Source of the DNA: Henckelia pumila
Taxonomy: Eukaryota > Streptophyta > Magnoliopsida > Lamiales > Gesneriaceae
Direction: 5' to 3'
DNA: 64,000 bases
Assembly (NCBI RefSeq): GCF_033568475.1
Contig: NC_133121.1
Location: 79,504,589 to 79,568,588, forward strand
Shown: positions 6,780-38,003 of the stretch, one piece after another
Layout of the letters: each line of letters opens with the position of its first letter
How positions within the stretch are numbered: the stretch's first letter is position 1
Notes under the pieces: model-generated
Databases searched by the model: none
The model's input: only the letters and a program-made list of their open reading frames with translations
What the model was told of the DNA's origin: nothing
Program-made: the position numbers and the translations under genes

Positions 6780-6780
6780 G

Positions 6781-6793
6781 GCAAGTGGGAGAT
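6781..6793 (+). other. Polypurine tract of Copia-1
   Basis: GCAAGTGGGAGAT directly precedes the TG of the 3' LTR and directly follows the pol stop. The same tract flanks the LTR of Copia-2 and, as AGTGGGAGAT, that of Copia-3. It is the expected plus-strand primer. Confidence 0.85.
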
Positions 6794-10989: not shown

Positions 10990-13900
10990 TTGAAATTTCT
11001 CAGTTTCATAATCTTTCTGGATAAAGTAAAAATAATAACAGAGCATTGGATAAGTCGGCTCAAAAAATTGGGCAAATGCATCAGTGCCGAGAGCTTGTGG
11101 CTTCCCGTCAAGCGCCATGTCGACTATTGGTGGTCCCTCGGAGACAATATTCAAGGCCTGAGAGATGAGATTGGCTATTTGGAAAGGGAGAGGCGCAACA
11201 TGGACCAAAGCATCGAAGAGGCTCGGCTTCGTGCAGGGAGTGCCACCGCTGAGGTCCAGAGTTGGTCCAGAGAAGGCGCTCAGAAGCTCGAGGAGGCGAA
11301 GATGATTTTGCAAGGCTGCATTGATCTTAAGGTTTGGAATATAATCTCACAGTACGCGGCTGGAAAGAACATCAAGAAGACTTTAGAAGCTCTTGAGAAA
11401 CTCCGAAAAGACGGGAGTTTGATCAAGATTGCCTGTCCCGCCCGTCTGCCATCAATGGTGTCCGTCTCTACGAACCATCTATGGAGTTTGAATCGAGAAG
11501 ACACTTTGAGGAAGGCATCATGGAGTGTTTGAGTGATGACCATGTTCATGTGATAGCCATTTGCGGCGGCGCATGAGGTGTTGGAAAGACAACCATGGTA
11601 CAAAGAATCGCGGATAGGGTGTTGGAAAGACAACCATGGTACAAAGAATCGCGGATAGGGTGAGAAAAGATAAGTTGTTTGATGAGGTAGTGATGGTAGT
11701 TGTCAGTCAAAAGATTGAAGTTCTTAAAATTCAGAAACAAGTAGCTGAATTATTAAATTTGGATTTGGATGAGAATACTTTGGGTGGGAGAGCAGGTAAA
11801 CTACGCACGAGGCTATTGGATTCAAAGAGAAAACTCATAATATTTGACTATGTTTGGGAAAGCTTCAAGCTAGGGGCGATAGGAGTTCCATTTGGAGATT
11901 GTTCTACGACTTGCAAAATAATTCTGACATCTCGAGTTAGAGAAGCTTGCATAAGAATGAATGCGCAAAAGATTATTCCCATGGAGATCTTATCTAGAGA
12001 AGAAGCATGGACACTTTTCAAAGAGAAAGCTGGCAGTCATGTGGAAGGTATGGATTTGCGCCCCATAGCGAAAAAGGTTGTAGAAGAATGCAAAGGTTTG
12101 CATGTTTCCATTGTGAATGTTGGTAAAGCACTAAAAGATCAAAACTCACCTGTATGGAGAGATTCTCTTTGTCAATTGAGTAGATCGATCCCAACAGATT
12201 TTCGAGAAGTCGTAAAAGATGTGTATAAGCCCCTGAAACTGAGTTATGATTTCTTGGAAAATGGAAGCGTGAAATCCCTTTTCCAGCTTTGTTGCTTGTT
12301 CCCTGAAGATTATGACATTCCCATTGAGCAGTTGACTTGGTATGCCATTGGGTTAGGTATGCTTGAACGAATCAGCAATATCAAAGAAGGAAGAAACAGA
12401 GTATATGTTCTTGTGGAAAAGCTTAAAACTTAAAAGTCGTTTTTTGTTAATCAATGGTAGTGAGGATTGTTATGTAAAAATGCATGATGTTGTTCATGAC
12501 GTGGCTATCTTCATCGGTTCAAAAGAAAAGCATTGTTCGTTGAGAAGTCTTGAAGCATCTCCAATGGATTCGTCAAGCAAAGATTCATCTCGTAGCTGCA
12601 ACCGAATGTCAATAGACATTTCAATCAAAAATGCCAGGCTTTCCGTTGGGAAAGATTATCTAAATCTTCGTCTCTTGATGATACTGAATTCAGCTGATAG
12701 CAAATCTTGTGAAGGATTTGATGCTGATGTTATTTGTTTTACGGGAATGGAGAAGCTGAATGTCTTGTATCTTTCAAGCATAAATATTCGATCCTTTCCA
12801 CAAACTCTGGATTTGCTAAAACAACTTGCAACGTTGCACTTGGAGTATTGTAAGGTGGAAGACATCTCTGTTGTTGGTGAGCTAACATGTTTGGAAATTC
12901 TTTGTGTCCAGCACTGTGGTAATATTAAAGAATTACCGGCACATATTGGGAGATTGAATCACCTAAGAGTTTTAGAACTGCACAGTTGCAAAAACCTCGA
13001 AAGAATATTTGTGTGCGTTGTATCAAGTCTGGTTGGGTTGGAGGAATTGAAGATTATTAAGTGGTTCGATAAATGGGAAACTGAGGGAAACCGAAGCTAG
13101 GAAAGGAATGCATGTCTATCAGAGCTCCAGTCTCTTACCAATTTGACTTGCTTGGAGATTGATATATATGACTGCAATTCTTTCACAACAGTTGGTTAGA
13201 TATCGAGTATCTTCTTGTGTCATTGGGTGGCCTCTTGATGACTTGAAATATGAGAGGAATGTCTCACTCACTTTACCCGGAGACATTACAGTAGCGAATT
13301 GGATTCGTGGACTAGTAAGGAGCACCCAGTTGTTGTTCTTAGATGGTGATGGTTCAAACATTTTTAATCTAGCTGATACTAAAAGCCTAAGGAAGCTCAT
13401 ATTTCTCAAGTGTTCGATGGTGAAGAAATTGGTGAATACAATGGATTGTGAGTTCCCTGTTTTAGAGAACCTAGAGTTGAGATGTCAAGAAGAGTTAGAA
13501 GAGATAATCGATGGTACGATTTCAGATGTATCTAATTGTTTTCAGAACCTAGAATCATTAACTGTCGAAAAGCTACCTAAGTTGGCACATTTTTGGAAGA
13601 ATCTAAACCAGAATGTTTCGCTTAGCAACCTCAAATCCATACATGCCGAAATTTGTCCCAGTCTACGCTCTCTCTTCTCTTTAGAAACTGTAAGGAGCCT
13701 TGTACAACTTCAATGCCTAGAAGTTCTTGATTGTGAGACGATCGAACAATTGTTTTGGAATGAAACCAAAAGCAACGTAAATGCTTCTGTTATTGAGTTA
13801 CCAAAGTTGAAGGAGCTGAAACTTTCCCGTCTGTCAAACGTTACAGCTTTCTCTCGGGGAGTTGAAACGATAGAATGTCCTCAGTTAGTAATACTAGAAA

Positions 13901-14280
13901 TCAGGTACTGCCCAAAACTTGTAACCGAAATGGACAGATGCCCAAACCTCGAAACCATGGAACTTTGTTCTTTCGATGGCCTACACCATCTTCTCTCTTC
14001 ATGATGCACCAGAAAATGGAATACACAATTTCAGAGGCTTGACATTAATGATTATGATGCTATAGAAGAAATATTTTGGGACGAAATTGAAGATGAAGGA
14101 AGATGTCATGTCATATTCCCGGAATTAACAGCACTGTGCCCAAGTGATTTTCCATGCCTCACAACATTCTATAGAGGTGTTCAAAGCATCAAGTTTCCAA
14201 AACTAAAATGGATGAAGATTGGATATTTGTCGAGGCTCGATAGTCTCACACCAATGGATTCGGAATCCACTCACGACCAT
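10990..14280 (+). pseudogene. CC-NBS-LRR disease-resistance pseudogene
   Basis: Homologous pieces of a CNL of the RPS2/RPS5/At4g27190-like class lie in order on one strand. Coiled-coil part: about 11090-11450 (VKRHVDYWW, then a heptad-like Glu/Arg region). NB-ARC: about 11450-12400, with P-loop GVGKTTM, RNBS-B CKIILTSR, GLPL-type CKGLHVSIVNVGKAL and RNBS-D CCLFPEDYDIPIEQL. MHD motif MHDVVHDVA at about 12480. LRRs from 12640 to 14280. Damage: a frameshift near 11455, an in-frame TGA inside the P-loop, a 41-bp tandem duplication over the P-loop, a frameshift near 12400, stops at 13098-13100 and after 14004, kinase-2 as FDYVWE (usually LDDVWE) and GLPL as GLHV. The family senses pathogen effectors in the cytoplasm or at membranes; this copy cannot make such a protein. 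The 5' start is uncertain. Confidence 0.92.
11578..11659 (+). repeat. 41-bp tandem duplication in the NLR P-loop
   Basis: 11578-11618 and 11619-11659 are identical 41-mers starting GTGTTGGAAAGACAACC, which encodes the Walker A lysine region. 41 is not a multiple of three, so the copy shifts the frame. Confidence 0.95.
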
Positions 14281-16124: not shown

Positions 16125-17424
16125 ACTTTTTTACTTGGTCAAATTTAAAATCATCTCCACATTATCTCTATATTTTTCTTTACAAGCAATTAAATCAGAA
16201 GCAAATGATATTGGTTTTGAGATGTTTGGTTGCTAATAAATAATAAGATTCTTATAAATTTCCTACTAACATTTTTGTTGAAAAATGTAATAACCCAACT
16301 TATGTTTTAAGTGATTAAATGACAAAGCATGTTTAAAAATGTTAAAATATGATTAAGAAGTTTTTATACGATAAAACCAAGTGAAGAATCGACTCCAAGA
16401 TGTCGAAAAAGGTCTGTACTACAATTTGGGCTCGAACACTTTAGTGACCCTGCATTGAATCACCTACTAACTGGAAACTATAACATATATTAATCTTAAT
16501 TAAAACATAACCAATTAACAGAGTAAAACGTGCGGAAACATACCCATAATTTATATATCAACTTAGTACAATAGTTCAAAGCTTAAACTCAGTAGTGATA
16601 CAACCATATCAAAATAACTTAAAATAAAACTGTCTAAAACATTATACAGCTATATCGAATCATGTTGTATAACATGCTACTGATCTCCTACTCCCTAGTC
16701 CTGCCTCGAACTCCCAGATCCGTCCATCATGCGACCTGCCCCGTGGAATGGAGTGCCCAAGATAATAACTAGAACGTGAGCGATTAACGGCTAGTACATA
16801 AATATGAGTAAACATATATATATGATGCATGCACTCGTGATGACAGGTAATAAGTCATCTGAAAGCCATGCTAATAATCGGCGCCAATGAGTGCTGTGAC
16901 CGCTCGGATCAAACCTCTGGGTACAACCACACTCGCCTAGATCCCCTCACTTTTTTACTTGGTCAAATTTAAAATCATCTCCACATTATCTCTATATTTT
17001 TCTTTACAAGCATTAAATCAGAAGTAAATGATATTGGTTTTGAGATGTTTGGTTGCTAATAAATAATAAGATTCTTATAAATTTCCTGCTAACATTTTTG
17101 TTGAAAAATGTAATAACCCAACTTCTGTTTTAAGTGATTAAATGACAAAGCATGTTTAAAAATGTTAAAACATGATTAAGAAGTTTTTATACGATAAAAC
17201 CAAGTGAAGAATCGACTCCAAGATGTCGAAAAAGGTCTGTACTACAATTTGGGCTCGAACACTTTCGTGACCCTGCATTGAATCACCTACTAACTGAAAA
17301 CTATAGCATACATTAATCTTAATTAAAACATAACCAATTAACAGAGTAAAACGTGCGAAAATATACCCATAATTTACATATCAACTAAGTACAATAGTTC
17401 AAAGCTTAAACTCAGTAGTGATAC
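16125..17424. repeat. 824-bp tandem duplication (copy 1 and left part of copy 2)
   Basis: 16125-16948 is followed directly by a second copy from 16949. Copy 2 is interrupted at 17425 by the composite element and resumes at 25403, ending at about 25756. The breakpoints share a short ACTTTTTTAC stretch. The copies differ by few substitutions and one deleted base. Copy 1 preserves the uninterrupted target site GATAC at 16597-16601. Confidence 0.93.
16286..16439 (+). repeat. LTR-F copy A, 5' part (continues at 45314)
   Basis: It starts TGTAATAACCCAACTT, homologous to the LTR start TGTAGTAATCCAATTAC at 45876. It stops at TSD AACAC, where the minus-strand solo LTR-F begins, and continues at 45314-45875. 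In the tandem copy the same start is near 17110. Confidence 0.8.
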
Positions 17425-17625
17425 TGTGACGCCCGGGGCTGAAGAGGCAGGGAGTGATTGCCGGTGCCAAGAGGTTGCACGGACAATGAGCGGCTCCTGG
17501 TAGGCTTCTAGGCGGAGGGAGACATGAATGAACCGATCTCGTGCCGGAATGAGAGGGATTCTGAGACTGTGTAGGTATGAGACTACATGGTTGAGGAGGG
17601 CTTAAAAGATTTCATATGTACTACT

Positions 17626-17746
17626 CATATCAAGAAGGTGCATCTTCTTTTCGGGAGCTCATCACATAAGAACTCCAAAGTTAAGCGTGCTTGAATTGGG
17701 AAAATTATAGGATGGGTGACCCCCTGGGAAGTTTCTCAGGGTGCGT
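17626..17746 (+). other. 5S rRNA-like domain in Cassandra LTR 1
   Basis: It matches plant 5S rRNA from about the first quarter to the 3' end: AGAACTCCAAAGTTAAGCG (box A region, about 17680), then GGATGGGTGACCCCCTGGG (intermediate element and box C, about 17710-17728). The 5' part is diverged. Box A is intact; box C has one or two changes. Possibly still able to bind TFIIIA or Pol III factors, not shown. Confidence 0.85.
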
Positions 17747-17806
17747 GTGAGTGAGGACATAAGCACGCTGAAAAAGACTAGTCTTGATACAGTGGGTCGT
17801 TACAAA

Positions 17807-17819
17807 TGGTATCAAAGCC
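17807..17819 (+). other. Cassandra primer binding site (first internal domain)
   Basis: TGGTATCAAAGCC follows the LTR end by two bases; repeated in the second internal domain at 18257-18269. Confidence 0.85.
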
Positions 17820-18075
17820 GACCTCTCTTAGTACGGTATGGTTCGGGGACGAACCAAGCGGAAGCTGGTGGGCATGTGACGCCCGGGGCTGAAGAGGTAG
17901 AGAGTGATCGCCGGTGCCAAGAGGTTGCACGGACAATGAGCGGCTCCTGGTAGGCTTCTAGGCGGAGGAAGACATGAATGAACCGATCCCGTGCCGGAAT
18001 GAGAGAGATTCTGAGACTGTGTAGGTATGGGACTACATGGTTGAGGAGGGCTTAAAAGATTTCATATGTACTACA

Positions 18076-18196
18076 CATATCAAGAAGGTGCATCTTTTTT
18101 TCGGGAGCTCATCACATAAGAACTCCAAAGTTAAGCGTGCTTGACTTGGGGAAATTATAGGATGGGTGACCCCCTGGGAAGTTTCTCAGGGTGCGT
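18076..18196 (+). other. 5S rRNA-like domain in Cassandra LTR 2
   Basis: Same as the LTR 1 domain shifted by 450 bp. Box A and the GGATGGGTGACC element are intact. Confidence 0.85.
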
Positions 18197-18525
18197 GTGA
18201 GTGAGGACATAAGCATGCTGAAAAAGACTAGTCTTGATACAGTGGGTCGTTACAAATGGTATCAAAGCCGACCTCTCTTAGTACGGTATGGTTCGGGGAC
18301 GAACAAAGCGGAAGCTGGTGGGCATGTGACGCCCGGGGCTGAAGAGGCAGAGAGTGATCGCCGGTGCCAAGAGGTTGCACGGACAATGAGCGGCTCCTGG
18401 TAGGCTTCTAGGCGGAGGAAGACATGAATGAACCGATCCCGTGCCGGAATGAGAGGGATTCTGAGACTTTGTAGGTATGGGACTACATGGTTGAGGAGGG
18501 CTTAAAAGATTTCATATGTACTACT

Positions 18526-18646
18526 CATATCAAGAAGGTGCATCTTCTTTTCGGGAGCTCATCACATAAGAACTCCAAAGTTAAGCGTGCTTGACTTGGG
18601 GAAATTATAGGATAGGTGACCCCCTGGGAAGTTTCTCAGGGTGCGT
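18526..18646 (+). other. 5S rRNA-like domain in Cassandra LTR 3
   Basis: Same domain shifted by 900 bp. The intermediate element reads GGATAGGTGACC here (G to A), unlike LTRs 1 and 2, so this copy is less likely to recruit Pol III factors. Confidence 0.83.
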
Positions 18647-18710
18647 GTGAGTGAGGACATAAGTACGCTGAAAAAGACTAGTCTTGATACAGTGGGTCGT
18701 TACAAAAAAA

Positions 18711-21700
18711 TGAAACATCCTAAAACTACTACTGAATTTTTTTTTTAAATCTCTTATTATAAAATAATGAATATAAATATATATATGCCCATACATATAT
18801 ATATCGTACTTAAAAATAACTTTACTTAATTTAAAATAAAAATACACAAAAAATACAATAAAGGTACACGCATGCAATTAAATATTTAAAAGTAATTACT
18901 AAATAATAATTTATAAGAATGTCATAATAAAATTCCTAAATAATATTTCTTTTACAAAAATTCATGAAAACTTAGAAAATAATTACTTAAATGTAAAATC
19001 CATGCATATACTAAAAATCTATAATAATAATACATATACGGAAATATATGTTCTAGTCTCAACATAAAAATCATCTTAGAGCAATGGTCACGGGTTCTAG
19101 CCGCCTGGATACTCATATGTCATCGCCACCAGTCGGAAACACATTAACTTCATTAACATTCTGCTCACCTGCACCATTTAAATCTAGTGAGCCTAGAGGC
19201 TCAGCACCTTCTATCCTTATATAACAAAATGAAACCACACACAAGCACACATCATATAAAATATGTGAATAATAATTATACGTGCATGCTCTTAAAATAT
19301 TATGCATATAAACATGAATAAATAATTATAATGCTTCATCATCATGCTAAACATAAACATCATATTTAATAAATCTCATAAAATGTCTTATCATAATTTC
19401 TTAGTTCTCAACAGGTCGTATCCATGTCGGTGGCATCATACTGAGCGATTGATCAATATATAAACCAATGTATGCGGCGGTGGAGTTTTCACCTCTGTGC
19501 TGCCACTTCACCAGCCCTCTCAGCTGGATCCATAAGCTCATCATACTTATACATCATTAGGAAGGTCACCGGGCCCAGGTATCCCGTCCTCCAACCACAT
19601 CACTTTCCACCTTCACTTCAACTTCCATACAAATAAATTTTTATAACATACATTTAAACTTATCATAAAAATTCTTACATGATGCATGAACTTAAAAAAA
19701 TATCATTTATTTCTTTATTTCATGAAAATTTGTCCGTAAATATATATTTAATTTATTTTCTTAAAAATCATACTTATATATCTAATAAAAATGCATGCAT
19801 GAATTAAATATATATTTACGAACGTTTATTTTTCCAAGGACTTGTTCGAGCTGCTGACCACTTAACTTAAACCCATAAATTTTTAGACTGACTCAAAAAC
19901 CCAAAAGCCCGACCTGAAAGGCCCATTAAGCTTCATGGGCCCCCAGGCCCATGGAAAACTAATGGGCTTACTAAAAACATAATTTAGGCCCATCAACTTA
20001 TTAACTTAAAGTTAAATTAATAAAATTATTAACTAACCATTAACTTATAAATTTGACCGATAAAATTACTAACCCGCCACAACTTGGTCCAATAATTTTC
20101 ATGGATCACACGGCCCATGACAAATTAGTGGGCTCACTTCATTAATTAATTAAGCCCATAATTAAAATTAAACTAGTCTAATTAATTAATTAACTCGAAC
20201 CCAAACTCATTTATTATTAACTTAATCTCTTATTTAATTCAAAATAAAAATACCCGAGTCCAACTAATATAAACCAAACCCGAACCAAACTAACTTGACC
20301 CATTATATTTTAGACCCAACCCGGACCCGAAAAGCCGAGCCCGGCCTGCCAAAACACCAGACACAACCCTAGCTTACCTCTCCCTAAGCCCAACTCGAGG
20401 CAGCCCTGAGCGGCTTCCGAAAATCTGATTGTGCCGCCTGCTCAGGCCACCTTTGGATGTGAAACCACCTCCCATACTTAGCCAACACCCAGAAGGTTCT
20501 AACCCAAGAAATTTGACCTTAAACCGAGCCCTGTAGAAGGAGAACGAACCAAAACAACAGAGCCCCTCTGCTGCTGTTCGTGCAGAACGCGACCGCTGAT
20601 TCCGGCCGTTCGGCTGCCAATCTCCGGCCACCACCGGCCGGAGAACCACCTGGAAAAACTTTCCAAAGGTCTTGGGATTATAACTCAACTAGAACCAACC
20701 TAAAACTCGTCCTGTGGACCAAGAACGAGCCCTCGCACGCAAACCGCTCAGTTTGCGTCTAAACCTGCGTCCAGCATGAACCTAGCCCAAACCAACGACT
20801 AAAGCCACTGAACCGTCATCCAAACATGACCCTAGGGACCCTATATCAACCCTCAACCCATTGGTCAGCAAGCTAGAACAATCCATGACAGAAAAACGTG
20901 ATAAAATTGATTCATAAGCTTTAAAAACGTAGGTTCTATGCATGTTCATGAATGTTCTTCATTAAAACCACATATATCATGCAAGATCATAATTTTCATG
21001 CTAAAATCAGAATAATATGACTTAAATGGTGTTCAAGAAGGGATTCAAACGTGCCTTGATGAATATTTGCAAGAAATAACGTTTATGTCGCGTCGTACGG
21101 CTCTCCGGGACGAACAGATCTCCAACCAATATAAAATCTTAAAAGCTCGGCTACGGGGCTGTGAAAATCTTGCTGGAACGATGAAGATGATGGAGAAAGG
21201 TTGAGGGAGGCAGCTAGGGAGTTGAGGCGTGAGATAGGGTAGCAAATCTTAGGATAATATTTGGGTAGTCTAGGTTAAATATTTAAATAAATACTTTGGG
21301 TAGATAATTACTAAAATTTAAACTAAAAAAATACATGATAATTTGCTAAAAACTTAAAAATCCCGAAATAATAAAATAGGTGATTTTTAAAACTTAATAA
21401 AAGTCATTAAAATGATTTATTTTGGGTAAAAACGGACATCTAAATATACATATATATAAATACCATAATTTTCTTAAAATTATACCTTAAAATAATATTT
21501 TAAGGCTCCTAAAAATCTCCGAAAATATTTTGGGTGAAAACAAACATCTCGTCCATCCACGGCCCCGCTTACGCGATCATAAAATAAACTTTCTCAAATA
21601 AATTCATAAACCACAGAAAACAAATTTAAATGCCGAAAAAATATTTAAAACATGAAAATAAATCACATAATTTAAATAATCACTCATAAAAACAATTTAA

Positions 21701-21780
21701 CACATTTTCACATTATTTTAAACTTATTAAATCTCTTAGTTATGCATGCGGATTTACGTAGCAAATTTTCGGACATTACA
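18711..21780 (-). repeat. 3' LTR of the giant-LTR element
   Basis: 3070 bp. Starts (plus-strand view) TGAAACATCC and ends CGGACATTACA. A 104-codon open frame at 20374-20688 on the minus strand recurs in the other LTR, but that follows from LTR identity and is not evidence for a gene. Confidence 0.92.
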
Positions 21781-22330
21781 ATTCTCTCTCCCTTAAATGA
21801 AATTTCGTCCTCGAAATTTGATTTAACTTAGTCGTCTAATAACACATGACTAAAATGTTTCAAAACTAATTTTTTAAACTTAAATCCCAAAAACATAACT
21901 TAATTTATATATCTAAAATTCAACTTAAATCTCAAAAAGAAAAAAAAATTCCTAACTTGTCAAACTTAAAATCTAAAATCATAACTTAATCTACAAATCT
22001 AAATGTCAAACTTACGTCTCATAAATTATCAAACTTAATTTTTTAAACAAATATCATTCTAGTCATCCTGGTGTGTAACGTGTCTCAGAAACATACTGTA
22101 ATTTCCATAAATTCTCTACGTAACCGCATTGCATAACTAATTTTTTTTTTTTAACTTTAAGACTTTCATAACTTAAAATTATCATTTTCATAAATCATTA
22201 AAACAAAAATCATGTGTCTCATGCATAAAACATAATTTAAAACATTTAAAACTTACAGACTGGCAGTGCGGCTTCTGAGCTCCGTGTAGCAGGCTAGTAA
22301 CCCTCCAAGGAACCTGGCTCTGATACCAAA
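21781..22330 (-). other. Interior of the giant-LTR element (PPT to PBS), noncoding
   Basis: The interior holds the polypurine tract next to 21781, AT-rich sequence with repeated AACTTAAAATCTAAAATC-like units, and the tRNA-Met primer site at 22316-22328. Nothing codes for a protein. Confidence 0.85.
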
Positions 22331-25300
22331 TGAAACATCCTAAAACTACTACTGAATTTTTTTTTTAAATCTCTTATTATAAAATAATGAATATAAATAT
22401 ATATATGCCCATACATATATATATCGTACTTAAAAATAACTTTACTTAATTTAAAATAAAAATACACAAAAAAATACAATAAAGGTACACGCATGTAATT
22501 AAATATTTAAAACTAATTACTAAATAATAATTTATAAGAATGTCATAATAAAATTCCTAAATAATATTTCATTTACAAAAATTCATGAAAACTTAGAAAA
22601 TAACTACTTAAATGTAAAATCCATGCATATACTAAAAATCTATAATAATAATACATATGCGGAAATATATGTTCTAGTCTCAACATAAAAATCATCTTAG
22701 AGCAATGGTCACGGGTTCTAGCCGCCTGGATACTCATATGCCATCGCCACCAGTCGGGAACACATTAACTTCATTAACATTCTGCTCACCTGCACCATTT
22801 AAATCTAGTGAGCCTAGAGGCTCAGCACGTTTTATCCTTATATAACAAAATGAAACCACACACAAGCACACATCATATAAAATACGTGAATAATAATTAT
22901 ACGTGCATGCTCTTAAAATATTATGCATATAAACATGAATAAATAATTATAATGCTTCATCATCATGCTAAACATAAACATCATATTTAATAAATCTCAT
23001 AAAATGTCTTATCATAATTTCTTAGTTCTCAACAGGTCGTATCCATGTCGGTGGCATCATACTGAGCGATTGATCAATCTATAAACCAACGTACGCGGCG
23101 GTGGGGTTTTCACCTCTGTGCTGCCACTTCACCAGCCCTCTCAGCTGGATCCATAAGCTCATCATGCTTATACATTATTAGGAAGGTCACCGGGCCCAGG
23201 TATCCCGGCCTCCAACCACATCACTTTCCACCTTCACTTTAACTTCCATACAAATATATTTTTCTTAACATACATTTAAACTTATCATAAAAATTCTTAC
23301 ATGAAGCATGAACTTAAAAAAATATCATTTATTTCTTTATTTCATGAAAATTTGTCCGTAAATATATATTTAATTTATTTTCTTAAAAATCATACTTATA
23401 TATCTAATAAAAATGCATGCATGAATTAAATATATATTTACGGACGTTTATTTTTCCAAGGACTTGTTCGAGCTGCTGACCACTTAACTTAAACCCATAA
23501 ATTTTTAGACTGACTCAAAAACCCAAAAGCCCGACCTGAAAGGCCCATTAAGCTTCATGGGCCCCCAGGCCCATGGAAAACTAATGGGCTTACTAAAAAC
23601 ATAATTTAGGCTCATCAACTTATTAACTTAAAGTTAAATTAATAAAATTATTAATTAACCATTAACTTATAAATTTGATCGATAAAATTACTAAACCCGC
23701 CACAACTTGGTCCAATAATTTTCATGGATCACACGGCCCATGACAAATTAGTAGGCTCACTTCATTAATTAATTAAGCCCATAATTAAAATTAAACTAGT
23801 CTAATTAATCAATTAACTCGAACCCAAACTCATTTATTATTAACTTAATCTCTTATTTAATTCAAAATAAAAATACCCGAGTCCAACTAATATAAACCAA
23901 ACCCGAACCAAACTAACTTGACCCATTATATTTTAGACCCAACCCGGACCCGAAAAGCCGAGCCCGGCCTGCCAAAACACCAGACACAACCCTAGCTTAC
24001 CTCTCCCTAAGCCCAACTCGAGGCAGCCCTGAGCGGCTTCCGAAAATCTGATTGTGCCGCCTGCTCAGGCCACCTTTGGATGTGAAACCACCTCCCATAC
24101 TTAGCCAACACCCAGACGGTTCTAACCCAACAAATTTGACCTTAAACCAAGCCCTGTAGAAGGAGAACGAACCAAAACAACAGAGCCCCTCTGCTGCTGT
24201 TCGTGCAGAACGCGACCGCTGATTCCGGCCGTTCGGCTGCCAATCTCCGGCCACCACCGGCCGGAGAACCACCTGGAAAAACTTTCCAAAGGTCTTGGGA
24301 TTATAAATCAACTAGAACCAACCTAAAACTCGTCCTGTGGACCAAGAACGAGCCCTCGCACGCAAACCGCTCAGTTTGCGTCTAAACCTGCATCCAGCAT
24401 GAACCTAGCCCAAACCAACGACTAAAGCCACTGAACCGTCATCCAAACACAACCCTAGGGACCCTATATCAACCCTCAACCCGTTGGTCAGCAAGCTAGA
24501 ACAATCCATGACAGAAAAACGTGATAAAATTGATTCATAAGCTTTAAAAACGTAGGTTCTATGCATGTTCATGAATGTTCTTCATTAAAACCACATATAT
24601 CATGCAAGATCATAATTTTCATGCTAAAATCAGAATAATATGACTTAAATGGTGTTCAAGAAGGGATTCAAATGTGCCTTGATGAATATTTGCAAGAAAT
24701 AACGTTTATGTCGCGTCGTACGGCTCTCCGGGACGAACAGATCTCCAACCAATATAAAATCTTAAAAGCTCGGCTACGGGGCTGTGAAAATCTTGCTGGA
24801 ACGATGAAGATGATGGAGAAAGGTTGAGGGAGGCGGCTAGGGAGTTGAGGCGTGAGATAGGGTAGCAAATCTTAGGATAATATTTGGGTAGTCTAGGTTA
24901 AATATTTAAATAAATACTTTGGGTAGATAATTACTAAAATTTAAACTAAAAAAATACATGATAATTTGCTAAAAACTTAAAAATCCCGAAATAATAAAAT
25001 AGGTGATTTTTAAAACTTAATAAAAGTCATTAAAATGATTTATTTTGGGTAAAAACGGACATCTAAATATACATATATATAAATACCATAATTTTCTTCA
25101 AATTATACCTTAAAATAATATTTTAAGGCTCCTAAAAATCTTCGAAAATATTTTGGGTGAAAACAAACATCTCGTCCGTCCACGGCCCCGCTTACGCGAT
25201 CATAAAATAAACTTTCTCAAATAAATTCATAAACCACAGAAAACAAATTTAAATGCCAAAAAATATTTAAAACATGAAAATAAATCACATAATTTAAATA

Positions 25301-25402
25301 ATCACTCACAAAAACAATTTAACACATTTTCACATTATTTTAAACTTATTAAATCTCTTAGTTATGCATGCGGATTTACGTAGCAAATTTCCGGACATTA
25401 CA
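22331..25402 (-). repeat. 5' LTR of the giant-LTR element
   Basis: 3072 bp, nearly identical to 18711-21780. Right-hand end CATTACA is followed by GATAC, the target duplication shared with the left end of the Cassandra array. Confidence 0.92.
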
Positions 25403-26258
25403 GATACAACCATATCAAAATAACTTAAAATAAAACTGTCTAAAACATTATACAGCTATATCGAATCATGCTGTATAACATGCTACTGATCTCCTACTCC
25501 CTAGTCCTGCCTCGAACTCCCAGATCCGTCCATCATGCGACCTGCCCCGTGGAATGGGGTGCCCAAGATAATAACTAGGCCGTGAGCGATTAACGGTCAG
25601 TACATAAATATGAGTAAACATATATATATGATGCATGCACTCGTGATGACAGGTAATAAGTCATCTGAAAGCCATGCTAATAACCGGCGCCAATGAGTGC
25701 TGTGACCGCTCGGATCAAACCTCTGGGTACAACCATACTCGCCTAGATCCCCTCACTATAACGGTACATCCTGTTCTAAAATATCTCGTAGAACCAACAT
25801 TATTTTAAACTTATTAAATCTCTTAGTTATGCATGCGGATTTACGTAGCAAATTTCCGGACATTACAGATACAACCATATCAAAATAACTTAAAATAAAA
25901 CTGTCTAAAACATTATACAGCTATATCGAATCATGCTGTATAACATGCTACTGATCTCCTACTCCCTAGTCCTGCCTCGAACTCCCAGATCCGTCCATCA
26001 TGCGACCTGCCCCGTGGAATGGGGTGCCCAAGATAATAACTAGGACGTGAGCGATTAACGGTCAGTACATAAATATGAGTAAACATATATATATGATGCA
26101 TGCACTCGTGATGACAGGTAATAAGTCATCTGAAAGCCATGCTAATAACCGGCGCCAATGAGTGCTGTGACCGCTCGGATCAAACCTCTGGGTACAACCA
26201 TACTCGCCTAGATCCCCTCACTATAACGGTACATCCTGTTCTAAAATATCTCGTATAA
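25333..26258. repeat. 465-bp tandem duplication spanning an LTR end and flank
   Basis: 25333-25797 (last 70 bp of the giant LTR, GATAC, then LTR-F sequence) is repeated at 25798-26258. The second copy runs into a poly-C run. The copies are almost identical. Confidence 0.92.
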
Positions 26259-26277
26259 CCCCCCCCCCCCCCCCCCC
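26259..26277. repeat. Poly-C run of 19
   Basis: A homopolymer of 19 C follows CTCGTATAA. It lies at the end of the 465-bp duplication. Long C runs are rare in plant DNA and often mark consensus or gap-filling errors. Confidence 0.9.
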
Positions 26278-26592
26278 GCGCTATAATGGTACATCAGGCT
26301 CTAGACTAAATACAGGTATATCAAAAGAATAGACTCAACGTGTATGTGCACATGACATATGATATGAAAAGCGGTAAACCATAATCATGCCACATAATAA
26401 TGCCATAGAAATGAAACATATAAACATGTATACTCGCTGGCAATCTCAGTCAATGTGTACGTACCTCTAAGCTAGTTCGAGTCTAATAGGACCTAGGTTC
26501 CAAGCCTATAATCAAAAGTTCACCGTATCACTACACAAGTTCTATTTTTCTTAATTAAGCTAATAGATACTCCCAAAACTTAATAAAATTCC
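26278..26592 (-). repeat. Segment of the minus-strand solo LTR-F
   Basis: On the minus strand it carries GGGAGTATCTATTAGCTTA, homologous to the LTR-F R-U5 region at 45856-45874 and 55007. It ends at TSD ATTCC, where the gypsy element was inserted. Confidence 0.75.
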
Positions 26593-28680
26593 TGAAAGGG
26601 CCCGTGCCCTGATTTAATATTTAATGATCAAACAACCAGGATTAACTAATGTAAACAGCGAAAACGAGTAAAAAATTTGCATTTTGGGCCTACAGAAAAT
26701 TCGGCATGACCTATTCGTAAATAGGACATCCCAAAAACCTGTACAATACAACCAGCAATATATACTCAAAAATAGAGACACAACATCAATTTACAAACCT
26801 ATAGCCGCACTGGCCAGGACTAAACACATGCAGAGCCGATAAGGCTCGATCACACAAATAACAATCCAAAACAAAGTCCAAAACTATCGATACAGATACA
26901 CAGGGCATCACCCCGGAAAATATAAAACTCGCTAAACTGATATATACATATATCTGGGAACTCCACTCCATACTCGTCTCACTGGGTACCACTAGATGAC
27001 GCTCCACCAGATGCGTCAAATCCCCCTGGATAACCTGCTATGGAATCACAAACAACTACAACATAAAAAGAAAACAGGGGTCGGACCCCAGTACGACGAA
27101 CTAGAAAAATTACGACAAATATAACTGACATGAATAAAATCAAGTACAATGCAATGTAATGCGTGACAGGTATCAATAGAATAATAGATACCAAATGGAG
27201 TCCAAACGAAACGTATCACAATAATCTCAGTGGCCACCCGTGCCAGGAACGCAGCAGACCTCGAATCATCACTGCTAATCCACACACGTAGCATCGAGGG
27301 CGACAGGAGCTACCCGTCCGACCTCATGCTGTCATCAGGAGTGTCGTACGTAGCATCGAGAGCACTGTTGCTACCCGCTCGGTCTTGTGCTAACTCAGGA
27401 ATGCACTAAATAATGTCACTCGCTCCGTCGATGACTCAATACATCTCAAGAGATCAATATCAATAGCAATCAAAGGAGTCAAGGCTCAACGTGCTATGAA
27501 AAATTGTAAATGAGTGATTGCAATCATATAATCCACATAAGCACATAAAGCACGTTATCACTCATTACAAAATACTAAATATCATTACATGCCATTATAG
27601 GCGTCGTAATTAAACGGATCATACGTACCTCAACCAACACTTAATTTACCACAGAATATCTCAAGTATTTCTCGAAGAGTCCAATCCTGTGGAAACCATT
27701 TATTCCATATTAATTCCTATTTCCATTTATATAATCTGAGAATTACTGAAACTAAGTCTAAAAATCAAAATAACATTTCTAAAAATTCATATCTCATATA
27801 AAATCATCCTATAAATGTCTAAATATCGAATAAACGACTCTAAAAGTCGAAATACCCAAAGTAGAACAATCTGAATTTTCCGAAAATTCCTACAAATTTC
27901 GAAAATATGCATTGAAATTTTCTAGAGAATCTAAACACTCAAATACTGACTAATCACCACTTAAATTCGAAAATCCCCAATATTAAAAATCTGGAAATTC
28001 GACATTAATCCCAAATAAATTTTGAAAAATATCGAATACCTTCAATCGACTCCAATTTAGTACCTACAACCAATAATAAATCAAATATCAATTATCGGAA
28101 GTCAATTGAATCAATATTCCCAAAATTTGAAACACTAATCTCGAAATCTACCTCAAATATTCGAATTAGAGGTCTAATCAACCGAAACCACAACCCCCTA
28201 AACTCTGGCGACAATCGACGGCGGTGAACGATGGCTAACGGCGGCGGCTGGTGCGACGGGTTTCCGGGAATATCAATAAAAATATGAAATATAGGTACGG
28301 AAAGATAGCTATCGTTGAGAGGATTCCGAAACTATATTTATTTTCGAAATCCGGCCAAAAACGAAGAAGATACGGAGATTTGAAGGGATAGGAAAATTTG
28401 AAGAAAAGAAAACAAAAGAAACGAAGAAGAAGACGCCACGCAGGCGGATGGAGGAGAGAGATTGTGATATATATTATATCTTTATATATAGATATGTATT
28501 AGTTTAATGTGTGTTTTATTTTATTTATTCGGGGTTAAAACTTGACCCGGTTTGAGTTATTTCAATTCTTGTGTGCTCTATAAATAATATATGCATTGTA
28601 ATATCGTCTATAAACCGATATTTATAAATACATATTTTTAACATACAAATTAATTAACATAGTAAAATCGGGTTCTTACA
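26593..28680 (-). repeat. Tekay-like gypsy 3' LTR
   Basis: 2088 bp, equal in length to the 5' LTR at 42648-44735, left flank ATTCC. Confidence 0.93.
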
Positions 28681-28694
28681 TTTCTCCCCCTCTA
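28681..28694 (-). other. Polypurine tract of the gypsy element
   Basis: On the minus strand AGAGGGGGAGAAA lies directly before the TG of the 3' LTR, after GATTTCGAGAACGAAATC, the usual Tekay-type context. Confidence 0.8.
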
Positions 28695-28759
28695 AAAAGA
28701 AGATTTCGTTCTCGAAATCAAACACACATCAAACTTATATACAAAGGGATTAAACATCT

Positions 28760-30183
28760 ATATTGATAGTACATAGGGAAATCAGAGTACATGGAATAAG
28801 TCACCACATTGTCAAACAAATGAGGTCATTCTTGACGCATTCTAGACTCCAATTCCCATGTAGCTTTTTCTCTCCCATGTCTACTCTATTCCACCATAAC
28901 CAAAGGAATCTTCTTGTTCCTAAGTTGCTTTTATTTACGATCAAGGATCTGCACTGGATACTCAACATAGCTAAGGGAACTATCCAACTCCACATCATCA
29001 GACCTCAAGATATGAGAAGGATCTGGTTCATACTTCCGCAGCATAGATACGTGAAATACATCATGTATCGCAGACAAATTCTGCGGCAAAGTCAAACGAT
29101 ACGCCAAAATACCAATCTTCTCAAAAATCTCGTACGGACCAATATAACGAGGAGCTAATTTTCCTTTACGCCCAAATCTCATAGTACCACGAAATGGTGA
29201 TACTTTCAAGAAAAAAAATCGCCAACCTGAAATTCTTAAGGTCTACGCCTGTTATTAGCATAGCTGGCTTGATGATCCTGGGCTGCTTTTACTCTTTTCC
29301 TGATCAGTTCAACTTTTTCTTTCATCTCTTGAATAAACTCAGGTCCTGACAACTGTCGTTCTCCTACTTCTTCCCAACATATCGGAGATCTACATTTTCT
29401 GCCATACAAGGCTTCAAATGGTGCCATTCCTATAGATACTTCATAACTATTATTGTAAGAGAATTCCACCAAAGCTAAAGATTCTTGCCAACCACCACTA
29501 AAATCCATCACAACAGCTCGTAATAAATCTTCGAGTGTCTAAATAGTTCTTTCAGATTGACCATCTGTCTGTGGATGATAGGCAGTACTCATGGCCAATT
29601 TAGAACCCAAAGCTGATTGCAAACTAGACCAAAACTTAGAAGTAAATATGAGATCACGGTCTGATACTATAGTAACTGGCACACCATGCAATCACACTAT
29701 CTGATCAATGTACATTTTTGCCATTTTCGTATATGTCCAAGTACGATCATATGGAATAAAATGGGCAGATTTAGACAATCTATCCACAATAACCCAAATG
29801 GCATCACAACCACGATTAGATCGAGGTAGGTGTGTCACGAAATCCATAGTAATGTGTTCCCAATTCCACTGTGGTACTTCAAGACTAAGTAACATACCAC
29901 CTGGTCTCATTCTTTCTGCCTTAACTTGTTGACACGTCAAACACTTAGCCACAAAGTCAGAAATATCTTTCTTCATACCTTCCCACCAGTAATGGGCTTT
30001 CAAGATATGATACATCTTTCGAATTCCAGGATGTATACTATGTCGACTACAATGAGCTTCTCGTAGTATCTCTTCTTTCAAATCTATCAAATTCGGAACC
30101 ACAAGTCTACCATTATAACGCAAACATCCATAAGAAGAAACAAGGAATTTCCCTGACTGACCAGCTGGAGTTAATTCTTTCAA
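28760..30183 (-). pseudogene. Gypsy integrase with C-terminal chromodomain, broken
   Basis: Minus-strand segments 30183-29692, 29511-29236 and 29209-28931, plus a decayed tail to about 28760, give an integrase. HHCC finger: HSIHPGIRKMYHILKAHYWW, then CLTCQQVKAERMRPGG. Core: ITMDFVTHLPRS and WVIVDRLSKSAHFIP, SDRD and [11 protein letters not shown] just upstream of 29511. GPY/F-like part: GPYEIFEKIG, then HDVFHVSMLRKYEPDPSHIL. The tail VQILDRK...LRNKKIPLV...ATWELE is a chromodomain, which in chromoviruses guides insertion to heterochromatin. Stops: TAG inside QSERTI*TLEDLL (CAG to TAG) and TAG in the chromodomain (TGG to TAG). Not functional. Confidence 0.9.
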
Positions 30184-30260
30184 GTGATGAATGTATGGAT
30201 CAGTCTTTTGTGCTGCTTTGATTTTTGAAATTATTCGTGGTTAAACTTGAATAGATGAAA

Positions 30261-30991
30261 CTATGAAATGATTCCTTTAGCTCGATAAGTCCATCCTGAA
30301 GTTCCCAAATGCTCATGAACTTTAGAAATAGTTAAAGATGCTAACATCTTAGTATGAACTTTTCTGCTCAAAGCATCTGCAACTTGATTCACATTTCCTG
30401 GTTGGTATTGAATATCACAGTCAAAATCCTTAAGCAATTCTAACCATCGACATTGTCTCATATTCAAATCAGACTTTGTGAATAAATATTTCAGACTCTT
30501 ATGATCGGAATAAATCACAAACTGTTCACCGTACAGATAATGACGCCATATTTTCAATGCATGCACAATGGCAGCCAATTCTAAATCATGAACTGGATAA
30601 CGAGTCTCATGTGGTTTCAATTGACGAGATGCATACGCAATCACGCGTCCATTTTGCATCAAAACACAACCCAGTCCATTCAAAGAATCATCTGTACATA
30701 CAACAAATCCACCTGAGCTTGAAGGTAATGCTAGTACTGGAGCCGTAGTCAATTTCTCTTTCAAAGTCTGGAAACTAGCTTCACATTCCTCAGTCCACAC
30801 GAAACGTCAATCTTTTTGCGTCAATATAGTCATAGGCCTAGCTATTTTGGAAAATCCCATGATGGAACGTCTGTAATATCCAGCCAAACCCAAAAAGCTA
30901 CGAATCTCAAAGACATTGGTTTGTCTAGACCAATTAAGAACAGCTTCAACTTTACTAGGATCGACAGATACCCCTTGTGCTGATATCATAT
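30261..30991 (-). pseudogene. Gypsy RT C-terminal part and RNase H
   Basis: 30989-30807 encodes the RT thumb start (SVDPSKVEAVLNW, SFLGLAGYYRRSI). 30800-30261 encodes RNase H ([57 protein letters not shown]). A stop separates the pieces. It joins the RT at 39850 once Copia-2 and one CATAT are discounted. RNase H would remove the RNA template during reverse transcription. Confidence 0.9.
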
Positions 30992-32832
30992 TGTTGGAAA
31001 ACGGTGTTCAGATCAATCAGAATTGATACCCGGTGCAGCGGAAGTTTTAAAATTTTATATGGAACGATTCCATATCATGGGTATCAAAACTTTACGATTA
31101 AATTGTGCGTGTAAAAATTAAATAACAATTAAATTTTTACCTTGAATCTCGAAACGAGATTATGGACACCAACAGATAACTCTGCTCTTGTTGTATATCC
31201 CAGGAACTGATGGACGAACAATTCTTCAATCAGGTCCACGAACAGAAGTTTAATCCCTCTGATATATTGCACTAGAAAATCTATCAGAAGTTTCTACGAA
31301 GAGAATTAACGAATTTGATCCGTTAAACCAGACTGCAAATTCGAAATTCACAGACTGGATTTCAGAGAGAAAACACAGAGAGGGGCGGCCACTCTAGGTT
31401 TCAAAAACCCTAGTGTTCGAAATTATGAGCCTCTGTTGTATAATTTCTGTACCGCAATAACTTATTTATAATGTGGGCTGCTAACAGCTTAGGGCCCATT
31501 AGTCATAAGTTCAAGCCTGACAAGCAAAGCCTGCATGTTCAGAAATTAATATAAAATTCATCGTGACTCAGATTGATAAACCAATTTCACCAATGTGCAC
31601 AGAAACCATTTCTGCAACTTTTAAAGTCAAGATAAATTTTCTGAATCCGAATTCAGTGATTTCCAAAAATGCCCATCCCTATGTCATTTTAGGAAATCTT
31701 ACTCTTCTACTATGATATAAGAAGTCCCACTTCTTTGTTCATTAAATTTAACTCTTTAAATTTAACTATCTCAACGGGGATTAAAAATCCATTACTTGTG
31801 TGACCCTCAATGGTTCAGGGATACAGCTAGCCGTGGGCTCACAACTCCTTGTGACTCGGAACAACAATTTCCGACTTGCCCATCGAATCATGGTAAGAGC
31901 GCCTAGCAACATCGCCCCATGATTCCCTAGGTATCACTGATAGTGCCTGCAAGAACCAATAGATTTTGGTTAGCGTACAGTACGGTCCCTTCATCCAAAT
32001 ATCCCAATCGAATCAACAACCATTGGTAAATCGAGAGTCGTTCGAGATTCGATAACTATGCAATACATCTTGAAGATCAAATAGTGACATCGCATGTGCT
32101 ACTAAGAAACCATTTCTTAAAACACATCATGTACTCTGGCCAGAGATTCGTCACACTAATATCTCCTCAGATTGCATAGGATATCCACACTAGCAAGTAT
32201 GTGGTGAATCCTTGACAACAAAGCATCGACTCCTATATGTGTCGTAACTGTACCCAATCCCGACACCTGATGACCCCAATAGAGTCGGTAAATGAGTCAA
32301 AGTACAGTACTAGCATATAGAGTCTCAATGATGTTTCAAGTAGTAAGGACTAATGGTGTACAACCAAAACCGCGGACTTTATCCACTCGATAAGTGATAA
32401 CCACTTGGAAAGTCCGGATAGGGTAGTTCGATCATTCATCGTATGAATATCAATTTGCATGCTTTGAACATCTCTATGTTCCATACCAATGAAACGTGGT
32501 ACTCGGCATCGCAAATGCTAGTCTCAATCTCGAGCGATCCTTATCCTTATTAACGGACGGCTCAATCGACTAGGAACTGTTTAGAATATACAGTGGCTAT
32601 AAGATGTGTTTCATGATAGCCATCCCCATGTGCCACCACATCTTACATACACTATAGTATATTCAAGGTCTTCATCTAAACATCTTATAGTATGTCACAA
32701 CATAATAATATGATAAAATATAAAGTAAACGCCATTTTAAAAGTGTAAATTATATTAAACAAAAGATTGTTTATACATAGAGTCATAAAAGCCCTTAGCC
32801 ACAAGTTGGCTCATCGGGCACCCACTCTTTCA
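30992..32832 (-). repeat. Copia-2 3' LTR
   Basis: On the plus strand TGTTGGAAAACGG to CCCACTCTTTCA; 1841 bp, same length as the 5' LTR. Confidence 0.96.
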
Positions 32833-32846
32833 ATCTCCCACTTGCC
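32833..32846 (-). other. Copia-2 polypurine tract
   Basis: On the minus strand GGCAAGTGGGAGAT sits between the pol stop codon and the 3' LTR. Confidence 0.85.
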
Positions 32847-35800
32847 CTAAAGCCAACTAGTCATACTACGCAGTCCCATTGCTTCGCGATGTTTGTCAAA
32901 TAATGGTCCTGGCAAGGGCTTATTAAGTGGATCAGCGATATTGTCTGCAGAGGCCACTCTCTCGACAGTGATGTCTCCTCTTTCCACGATCTCCCGGATG
33001 ATGTGGTATTTCCTCAGTACGTGTTTGGATCTTTGATGAGACCTTGGTTCCTTTGCCTGAGCAACGGCACCCGTGTTGTCCCAGTACACCGGGACTGGAC
33101 CAACAACTTCAGGAATAACGCCCAACTCTTGGACGAAATTCCTCATCCAAACGGTCTCTTTAGCAGCAGCTGATGCCGCAATGTATTTTGCCTCAGTGGT
33201 GGAATCCGTTGTGGTGTCCTGCTTGGAACTCTTCCAAGAGACAGCACCACCATTGAGCATGAACACAAATCCAGAGGTTGACTTCGAGTCATCTATGTCA
33301 CTTTGGAAGCTAGAGTCGGTATAGCCTTCCAATTTCAATTCTCTTCTTCCATATACCATGAACATATTCTTAGTCCTTCGTAAGTACTTAAGAATGTCCT
33401 TCACGGCTTTCCAATGCATTTGACCGGGATTGGCTTGATATCTGCTCGTGACACTCAGAGCAAATGCTACATTCGGTCTGGTAGATATCATCCCATACAT
33501 GATACTACCTATGGCTGACGCATATGGTACATGTGTCATTTTTTCTATCTCTTCATCAGTCTTGGGACACATGGACTTGGATAGAGAAACTCCATGACAC
33601 ATAGGTAGATGTCCTCTCTTGTACCCATCCATTGAAAACCTTTTCAATATAGTGTCGATGTAGGTTGCTTGAGTGAGTCCTATCATTCTCTTAGATCTAT
33701 CTCTATAGATCTGTATCCCTAGAATATAGGATGCCTCACCCAAATCCTTCATCGAGAATCTACCTGATAACCATATCTTTGTTGACTGCAACATCCCTAC
33801 GTCATTTCCAATGAGTAGGATGTTATCAACATAAAGTACTAAGAATGTCACAGCATCCTTAACTACTTTCTTATACACGCACGGTTCCTCCGGGTTCTTG
33901 ATGAAACCAAAATCCTTTATTGTTTCATCAAATTTCTGGTTCCAACTTCTTGATGCTTGTTTGAGACCATAGATTGATCTCTGAAGCTTGCATACCTTAT
34001 GCTCGCTTCCCATGGATGTGTATCCCTCAGGCTGCATCATAAAGATCTCTTCCTTAAGGTTTCCATTAAGAAATGCAGTCTTCACATCCATTTGCCATAT
34101 CTCATAGTCATACCAAGCAGCTATGGCAATAAGGATTCTTATGGACTTGAACATTGCAACTGGTGAAAAGGTTTTATCATAGTCAACTCCTTGTCTTTGA
34201 GTATAACCTTTCGCCACCAATCGTGCCTTATAGGTCAATACCTTACCATCAGGCCCAAGCTTTCTCTTGTAGATCCATTTACACCCTATTGGAACAATTC
34301 CATCGGGAGGATCTACTAAAGACCAAACTTGGTTTGTATGCATCGAATCTATTTCCGACTGCATAGCTTCAAGCCATAAATTTGAATCCGCATCAGAAAT
34401 TGCTTTCTTGAAGTTTTTTGGATCACATCCAATGTCGGGTTCATCTTGATCCCCTTCAAGAAGAAGACCATATCGAATAGGAGGTCTAGAAGTCCTCTCG
34501 GATCTTCTAGTAATAGGCCTGTCCTCTGAAGATTCTTGAGGTATGGGATCATTATTTTGTATTTCGGGTTCTTCTCGAATTTCTTCAAGTTCCATCATCT
34601 CGCCTTTCTTATCCAATAAGAACTCCTTCTCCAAGAAGGTGGCATTCCTTGAAACAAACACTTTTGTTTCAGTAGGATGATAGAAATAATATCCGATTGA
34701 ATTCTTCGGATACCCTACAAAATAACATAAGGTGGATCGACTATCCAACTTATCTCCCACTGTCTGCTTCACGTAAGCTGGACATCCCCAAATCCTCAAG
34801 TACGAATACTTAGGAGTTTTGTCATTCCATAACTCGTATGGTGTTTTATCCACTACTTTGGTGTGGACGTTGTTCAACAACAATACCGCCGTTTCAAGAG
34901 CATAGCCCCAAAACGAAGGTGGGAGCTCAGTGAAGCTCATCATGGATCGAAGCATGTCCAACAAAGTTCTATTACGACGCTCCGAAACACCATTCAGCTG
35001 TGGTGTCATAGGAGGAGTCCACTGAGAAAGAATCTCATTCTCTTTTATATAGTCCAAAAACTCGGTACTCAAGTATTCTCCACCTCGATCCGATCGAAGT
35101 GCTTTAATACTTTTACCTAGTTTGTTTTCTACTTCAGCCTTGAATTCTTTGAACTTTTCAAATGCTTCAGACTTATATTTCATTAAATATAAATACCCAT
35201 ACCTTGAATAATCATCAGTAAAGGTAATGAAGTAGGTGTGGCCAAATTGAGTACCAATTCTAAATGGACCACAAACATCTGTATGGATCAAATCCAACAG
35301 ATTTTGGCTACGCTCAGGTTTCCCCTTGAATGGAGATTTAGTCATTTTTCCTTTCAGGCAGGATTCACAAGTAGGTAGAGAGTTAATATCAGACATATCA
35401 AACATGCCCTCTCCCACTAGCTTGTTCATCCTCCTTGAGGAAATATGACCTAGCCTAGCATGCCAAAGGTTTGCCGGGTTTTGACTATCGATTTTCCTTT
35501 TGTTTGTTGTTACCGGTTTATCAACATAATTTATTGGAACGTCTTTTAATTTTAAGTTATATAGATCATTTTCAAGTTGTCCATTTCCAATCAAACATTC
35601 ATTCTTGTAAATATTGCAAATCCCATTCACAAAATTGCAAGAAAAACCATCTCTATCAAGCATAGAAACAGAAATAATGTTTTTAATCAAATCTGGAACA
35701 AATAAAACATCTCTCAAAAGTAACTTAAAATCGTTCTGCAAAATTAAATAAACATCTCCCACAGCTTTGGCTTCAACTCTAGAACCATTTCCGAGCCTCA

Positions 35801-36047
35801 GCTGGGTCTCACCCATCCTTAGCCTATTACTTCTTGTCATCATTTGCAACTCATTGCAAATGTGAGATTTACATCTGGTATCCAATACCCAAGAAGTAGT
35901 ATTAAGAAAAATATTTATTTCAATGTAAAACATACCCTTTGCAGTTCGCAACTGCTCGAGGTATTCCTTGCAGTTACGTTTCCAATGACCGGGTTTCTTG
36001 CAGTGATGGCAAACTTGTTTAGACTTGTCCAATTTTGCATGTAACAT
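32847..36047 (-). pseudogene. Copia-2 pol frame, open but with altered catalytic motifs
   Basis: A 1066-codon open frame begins just before the Gag zinc knuckle (C13, C16, H21, C26) and runs through protease, integrase, RT and RNase H to the normal pol end. Integrase motifs match Copia-1 (WHARLGH, HTDVCGPF, SDRGGEY, NGVSERRNRT). Altered sites: protease DTG is DTR (residue 58, AGA for GGA); RT YVDD is YVDN (residue 742, AAC for GAC); RNase H EAEY is EAKY (residue 954, AAA for GAA); DNTGAV is preceded by W instead of C. The first three are G-to-A on the coding strand. The ATG at 36047 is not the native start, since the frame lost its Gag. I infer no active protease or RT, although the frame stays open. 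Confidence 0.9.
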
Positions 36048-36260
36048 TTGGCCTTGAGATCATGGTCCAACCATTTCTTTAGTTCGGCCAACCTTTCGGC
36101 AGTTACATCAGCCGGGGCTGTTTTCGGAGAAGCCTTTTCTAACACTTAGAAAATCCTTTCCGAACTTAGGACAATCTTAACTTATGGAATCATTCTGTAT
36201 TGTTTGCGCCAGTAAGTTTGTTTTGTTCGAGAATTGAAACATGTGGATTACGAAGATTCA
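35915..36260 (-). pseudogene. Copia-2 gag remnant
   Basis: The native ATG lies near 36262 on the minus strand, followed by ILEQNKLTGAN. It meets an in-frame TGA where Copia-1 has Trp (TE-W-F), with a further stop before 36145. After LKAKCYMQ the sequence jumps straight to the zinc-knuckle region: compared with Copia-1, about 480 bp (3114-3594 there) are missing, and the frame shifts at the join. No capsid protein can be made. Confidence 0.88.
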
Positions 36261-36261
36261 T

Positions 36262-38002: not shown

Positions 38003-38003
38003 C

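Follow-up and report, generated by a model that had tools for sequence, protein, structure and literature searches.

The genome of Henckelia pumila carries, on contig NC_133121.1, a single inserted unit made of two different long terminal repeat (LTR) retroelements. Within the 64,000-nt stretch that we analysed (positions 79,504,589 to 79,568,588 of the contig, hereafter the window), positions 17425-25402 are occupied by a Cassandra array (17425-18704, + strand) and an apparently gypsy-type element of 6.7 kb (18711-25402, - strand), which together are enclosed by one 5-bp target duplication, GATAC. Very probably, complementary DNAs (cDNAs) of Cassandra and of Ty3/gypsy elements became linked end to end and one integrase inserted them in a concerted reaction, taking one end from each. 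Coordinates are window positions; the window belongs to an assembly of 884,658,702 bp in 133 contigs (GCF_033568475.1), and loci on C1 to C4 lie in the same genome.

GATAC adjoins both outer ends of the unit, at 17420-17424 and 25403-25407, as an earlier note on this DNA had described. Both outer ends are trimmed U3 (unique 3') ends whose TG directly abuts GATAC, as in a 5-bp duplication of integrase type. The empty target site to which that note had pointed could be confirmed: in a tandem repeat of 824 bp, the copy to the left holds GATAC once (16597-16601), and its flanks match those of the unit save for 12 of 476 and 8 of 355 sites. Between the two elements, AAAAAA (18705-18710) is the sole inner junction, again as claimed, and it lies between two U5 (unique 5') ends. 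Together with four further exact units elsewhere in the genome, the single GATAC and the empty site bear out the view that two elements entered as one unit in one integration, with one end from each. A genome search of the kind that the earlier note had proposed found the exact 26-nt window junction once, and like-built units with single duplications of their own at other loci. Beside the right end, a 465-bp tandem duplication (25332-26260, 99.6%) carries the last 71 bp of the outer LTR of the large element, GATAC and flank, and is therefore younger than the insertion.

The Cassandra array contains three LTRs of 380 bp with two internal parts of 70 bp between them, all on the + strand. LTR 1 (17425-17804) starts with TGTGACG at its trimmed U3 end and holds a 5S-like box A and box C at 17679-17721; it is followed by internal part 1 (17805-17874), which reads AA, primer-binding site (PBS) TGGTATCAAAGC, hairpin TGGTTCG-GGGA-CGAACCA and polypurine tract (PPT). 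LTR 2 (17875-18254), internal part 2 (18255-18324) and LTR 3 (18325-18704, ending in GTTACA) complete the array. The published box A/box C pattern, with the boxes 15-25 nt apart, is present in all three LTRs, and 57 of 72 bases match a plant 5S sequence; an Rfam search of 17000-26300 at E up to 0.1 gave no match. Compared with the methionine (Met) PBS TGGTATCAGAGC, TGGTATCAAAGC has one mismatch, and it follows both of the LTRs that have an internal part. At these sizes, and with no coding capacity, the element is a terminal-repeat retrotransposon in miniature (TRIM). Its PPT, GAAGCTGGTGGGCA, is unlike gypsy PPTs.

The large element lies on the - strand. Its 3' LTR occupies 18711-21780, and its 5' LTR (22331-25402) starts with TGTAATGTCCGG at the trimmed U3 end; the two measure 3070 and 3072 bp and differ at 42 of 3069 compared sites. 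The 550-bp internal part (21781-22330) reads TT followed by the PBS TGGTATCAGAGCC, the hairpin AAATTTCG-AGGA-CGAAATTT and a PPT, with no listed open reading frame of at least 150 amino acids. The assignment of this 6.7-kb partner as gypsy-type is suggested by its PPT, hairpin, PBS and LTR ends only, as it has no coding internal region. The 5' LTR ends of Cassandra and the window partner agree at 9 of 14 bases, a likeness too limited to be kept as proof of a shared integrase. Matches to the large-LTR family also occur at a spacing of about 3.62 kb, resembling tandem arrays, at C4:125677953-125696909, C4:73419245-73430942 and C4:88101202-88109296.

The Cassandra PBS reads on the + strand and that of the large element on the - strand, which places the two tail to tail with their U5 ends inward, an orientation on which the earlier note was silent. 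In the junction, AA stands as it does after Cassandra LTRs 1 and 2, a further AA complements the TT that separates LTR from PBS in the partner, and two A are extra; two untrimmed tails are predicted to join as CA-AAAA-TG, and the actual sequence is CA-AAAAAA-TG. The extra bases could possibly have arisen by slippage, by addition of bases or as a homopolymer error. It is known that the junctions of 2-LTR circles retain bases of untrimmed ends. Across the five exact units the joints are AAAAAA, AC, GTA, TT and TT. The partner's own LTR-PBS bases are found in the joint in the window (complement AA) and at C2:108790315 (complement AC); at the joint at C2:116329347, GT is that of a relative 89% alike to the partner, and the TT joints have TT as in the window large element and in junctions reading TTTGG. 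Among matches whose status as units is unproved, longer spacers read TTCA (TT plus CA, the two bases preceding the Cassandra TG) or GTGGGCA (Cassandra PPT bases). Such bases are what unprocessed cDNA ends would leave on being joined.

We then looked across the genome with an 830-bp Cassandra query, which does not preset the end of any partner; it gave at least 53 matches (40 of 1977 first-look candidates scored). The loci returned besides the window numbered 28 and held 29 Cassandra arrays, of which 20 are flanked by an exact 5-bp duplication of their own; two of the nine that lack one are fusions. The large element likewise has its own duplication in seven of the eight copies for which both ends were found (10 fetched). 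One fusion, at C2:108790315, reads GTTGT, a two-LTR Cassandra, AC, a 10.19-kb gag-pol gypsy element and GTTGT, arranged tail to tail; AC is the complement of the GT that separates the gypsy partner's own LTR and PBS. When its flanks are joined they form one open frame reading CSYCCKIGHARHKC, by eye a copia-type zinc knuckle, with a copia gag_pre-integrase domain downstream. The other, at C2:116319214-116330181, reads AGTGG, a 10.13-kb gypsy element ending in its tail, GTA, a Cassandra head and AGTGG. Its gypsy part, of which both ends and one inner stretch were examined, is a relative of the C2:108790315 partner, and the empty site, with AGTGG once, is present in a paralogous stretch inside the gypsy element itself. 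Elsewhere, at C2:80092838 (L022), a Cassandra stands head to head with a second Cassandra variant (GGGTGTCACA-TCCA-TGTGACGCCC), whose far LTR looks damaged.

Pattern searches, which favour gypsy-type ends, added the other two exact units. The pattern GTTTCA-N0-10-TGTGACGCCCGG matched 15 times (reversed-pattern control: 0), and by eye the left side is a gypsy-type LTR tail in 11 of them (ten of 14 fetched, and C2:116329341); the remaining four comprise an ordinary insertion (TCAAG), one without a duplication and two undecided. Among these 11 gypsy-tail/Cassandra-head matches, the outer duplication is exact in three (AGTGG, TTCAC, CATAT) and agrees at four of five bases in one (GCAGG/ACAGG, spacer TTTGGCTCA). 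First guesses at the length of the partner missed its far end in four of four attempts; at one LTR length, three loci gave two exact duplications and the four-of-five case. The fourth and fifth exact units have TTCAC and CATAT around a gypsy-type part of one LTR length (3.04 and 3.08 kb), TT and Cassandra, the partners being putative solo LTRs by their length. The tail-to-tail pattern GGTCGTTACA-N0-10-TGAAAC gave five matches (reversed control: three), all of which continue by eye as gypsy-type tails, and two have exact duplications (the window and C2:108790315, joint at C2:108791137). Of the others, C4:150786559 is a near case only, with a tail like that of the window partner, spacer AA, CATAT on both sides and a changed partner end, TTAGA; at C2:110971810 (tail like the window partner's, spacer ACAAA) and C3:131867940 (another family's tail, spacer AATGAA), PPT-like sequence follows the first LTR and the far end was not reached. 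Altogether there are five exact cases, two near cases and eight further candidates whose outer duplication is not established, and three exact cases (the window, C2:108790315 and C2:116319214) were found without presetting the partner's end. A partner-partner tail-to-tail pattern had no match in the genome. Six matches in an IMG/VR pattern scan all lay in DNA of 51-70% G+C with no Cassandra context by eye, and a related-locus scan with the window reverse transcriptase found none.

Both parts of the unit at C2:108790315 are young: the Cassandra LTRs have no differences over about 380 bp, and the LTRs of the gypsy partner are 99.74% identical (0.26% divergence). In the window, a comparison of rates, made to see whether the two parts are of equal age, gives p values from 0.042 to 0.26 according to the choice of LTRs and sites.

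How could such units form? We propose that linear cDNAs of Cassandra and a Ty3/gypsy-type element would be present together and that one end of each would be linked by end joining, at least the partner's end without prior trimming by integrase. A single integrase would then insert the two remaining free ends in one concerted step that leaves one 5-bp duplication. In the window, the U5 ends would have been joined and the U3 ends integrated, and elsewhere the partner's U5 end would have been joined to the Cassandra U3 end. In an alternative order, a bimolecular intasome would form first and the free ends would be repaired afterwards, with the same product; as purified integrases insert two unlinked ends together, integration could precede joining. 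The joining pathway may resemble non-homologous end joining. The earlier note had proposed that Cassandra and this partner share a particle and an integrase: the shared integrase follows from one end of each element being used under a single duplication, and for the shared particle we infer only that both cDNAs may have come from one. It is tempting to speculate further that Ty3/gypsy chromoviruses carry Cassandra genome-wide, that their integrase often pairs a Cassandra end with the end of a chromovirus or a non-autonomous relative in a bimolecular intasome whose free ends are sealed later, and that heterodimers are a regular by-product; we offer this tentatively, at slightly less than even odds.

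Could the window unit instead have been built in steps? Cassandra might have inserted first and the large element later into the array, after which a deletion via a shared TTACA brought GATAC beside the large element. TTACA is indeed present at both right-hand ends, and the somewhat older look of Cassandra at this site would fit such a sequence. However, it needs an A run at the insertion point, and the Cassandra LTR/PBS border (TTACAAATGG) has none; it also needs a deletion exact at both ends, and it is opposed by the four other exact single-duplication units, in one of which the LTRs diverge by 0 and 0.26%. We consider it improbable. An exchange between two neighbouring insertions, which the earlier note had listed among its alternatives, is not supported. 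An assembly error joining two insertions has in its favour the repeats on both sides and the 465-bp duplication beside the right end. Against it, both outer flanks fit one empty site, a false join would have had to land on one and the same GATAC from either side, the overlap at the join is no longer than the A run, and five loci share the same design with different duplications (four besides GATAC); an artefact of this sort is very unlikely.

Template switching in the course of reverse transcription, described by Sabot and Schulman (2007), would also yield a chimeric cDNA, and was the reading that the earlier note favoured. Their model (PMC1950507) likewise has a single outer duplication and co-packaging. 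It predicts, however, one orientation, a shared middle LTR and alike outer LTRs, whereas the window unit is inverted, shares no LTR and has unlike outer ends. Reverse transcription of two packaged RNAs preserves sense, as established for retroviral replication. Packaged RNAs being of the same sense, switching would give same-sense chimeras, and the opposite orientation of the parts in the window and at C2:108790315 contradicts it. The window junction moreover lies outside both LTRs, and the tail-to-head cases, though in one orientation, also break exactly at LTR ends, so that all five exact cases break there with extra bases, a feature also of 2-LTR circle junctions. We thus regard template switching as having scarcely any chance of being the origin.

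Several observations weigh against the joining and concerted integration of two cDNAs. Seven other Cassandra arrays lack an exact duplication, and we found no explanation for them. Of the 11 gypsy-tail/Cassandra-head matches, one is a misfit: at C1:159813382, Cassandra is bordered by a gypsy-type LTR tail (spacer ATT) on one side and by a Met PBS, AAACAGAATGGTATCAGAGCC, on the other, with no exact duplication. Another has a duplication of four in five bases, and six are undecided. The window junction has two A beyond the prediction, and the match of an A run to untrimmed ends is weak evidence; only two of the five exact cases allow the partner's 2 bp to be taken from its own sequence, and for the other three they come from related elements. 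The window Cassandra LTRs also look older than those of the partner: the three carry 15 changed sites and the partner's two carry 42 (ratio 1.92, p=0.042, all sites); with LTRs 1 and 3 only there are 10 changes (ratio 1.92, p=0.073), and by transitions per G+C site the ratio is 1.49 (p=0.26). A lower divergence of the partner's long LTRs could stem from gene conversion between them. Nor were the three Cassandra LTRs all fixed at one time: LTRs 2 and 3 have two derived states in common (rooted by 59 other LTRs; one state is also in 1 of the 59), so that one of these two arose later, through a duplication within the array.

The partners in the exact units point to the type of helper. All five are gypsy-type, two of them coming from searches that favour such ends. 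The gag-pol partner (C2:108791149) has gag, RVP_2, RVT_1, RNaseH and integrase zinc-binding domains in this order, which is that of Ty3/gypsy; no integrase catalytic-core match is listed, and a Chromo match (E=0.0004, 20.7 bits) lies below the curated cut-off of 25.1. As all partners are gypsy-type and one of them combines gag-pol with nearly identical LTRs, the helper of Cassandra is probably a Ty3/gypsy chromovirus. Against this stands a speculation by Gao and others (PMC4717578) that the TRIMs of flowering plants derive from copia elements.

A hairpin, TTCG-NNNN-CGAA, is common to Cassandra (17842 and 18292), the large element (21815, - strand) and the Ty3/gypsy element at 26593-44739 in the window (hairpin at 28716, - strand); it starts 33-36 nt before the 3' LTR, and the stem letters differ. 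All four window loci where its stem reaches at least 5 are these hairpins. With both strands counted, six stems of at least 6 occur in the window, against a mean of 0.135 in 200 order-1 Markov sequences, none of which reached four; the motif was picked only once it had been noticed. In the three window copia elements, the best stem with a 4-nt loop ahead of the 3' LTR is 3; a stem of 7 at 39844, in the flank of a 5' LTR, was set aside from this comparison. The gag-pol partner at C2:108790315 has TTTCGAGGACGAAATT at the same place. The hairpin would fit a shared packaging or priming signal, and a literature search on it returned no matching title or abstract. Nested in the Ty3/gypsy element of the window is one copia element (30980-39844); two more lie at about 905-8637 and 52747-60788. 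The window also contains, within 10990-14004, an NB-ARC frame (11636-12433) whose neighbouring frames resemble resistance-gene pieces by eye.

The component reactions are known. Insertions attributed to template switching in Triticeae, rice and maize (PMC1950507) also place more than one element within one 5-bp duplication through events before integration; those are of the same family and orientation with a third LTR in the middle, whereas in the Cassandra units two unlike families meet at their LTR ends, and do so in either orientation. In 2-LTR circles, as far as the accessible parts of the reports go (PMC12786077, PMC5338827, PMC10462705), linear cDNA ends are joined to each other; in the Cassandra units two different molecules would be joined and the product integrated with one duplication. 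Purified integrase, in the portion of PMC3790719 available, inserts two unlinked viral DNA ends of one type together into one target, in vitro and with short donors, whereas the plant units would involve long cDNAs of two families. Cassandra tandem arrays with the order LTR-internal-LTR-internal-LTR, 5S boxes and a Met PBS are described in a 2020 paper (PMC7215508), whose main text, in the part seen, calls the autonomous partners unknown and lacks the word 'chimeric'. Retrozymes, too, are non-autonomous plant elements for which a Ty3-gypsy helper was inferred from PBS and PPT boxes; the accessible description (PMC4918200) has no fusions, whereas the Cassandra link is one of physical co-integration. 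A literature search for fusions of heterologous LTR elements, mostly outside subscription papers, found no matching report.

The DNA copies of two families can thus be inserted as one piece, and units in which one integrase took a Cassandra end together with a gypsy-type end provide evidence, from the genome, on the type of partner that Cassandra uses. By counting such junctions, the question of the partner becomes a genome survey that can be made in any plant. If the wider chromovirus reading is true, heterodimer insertions would allow the helper of each parasite to be read from the genome.

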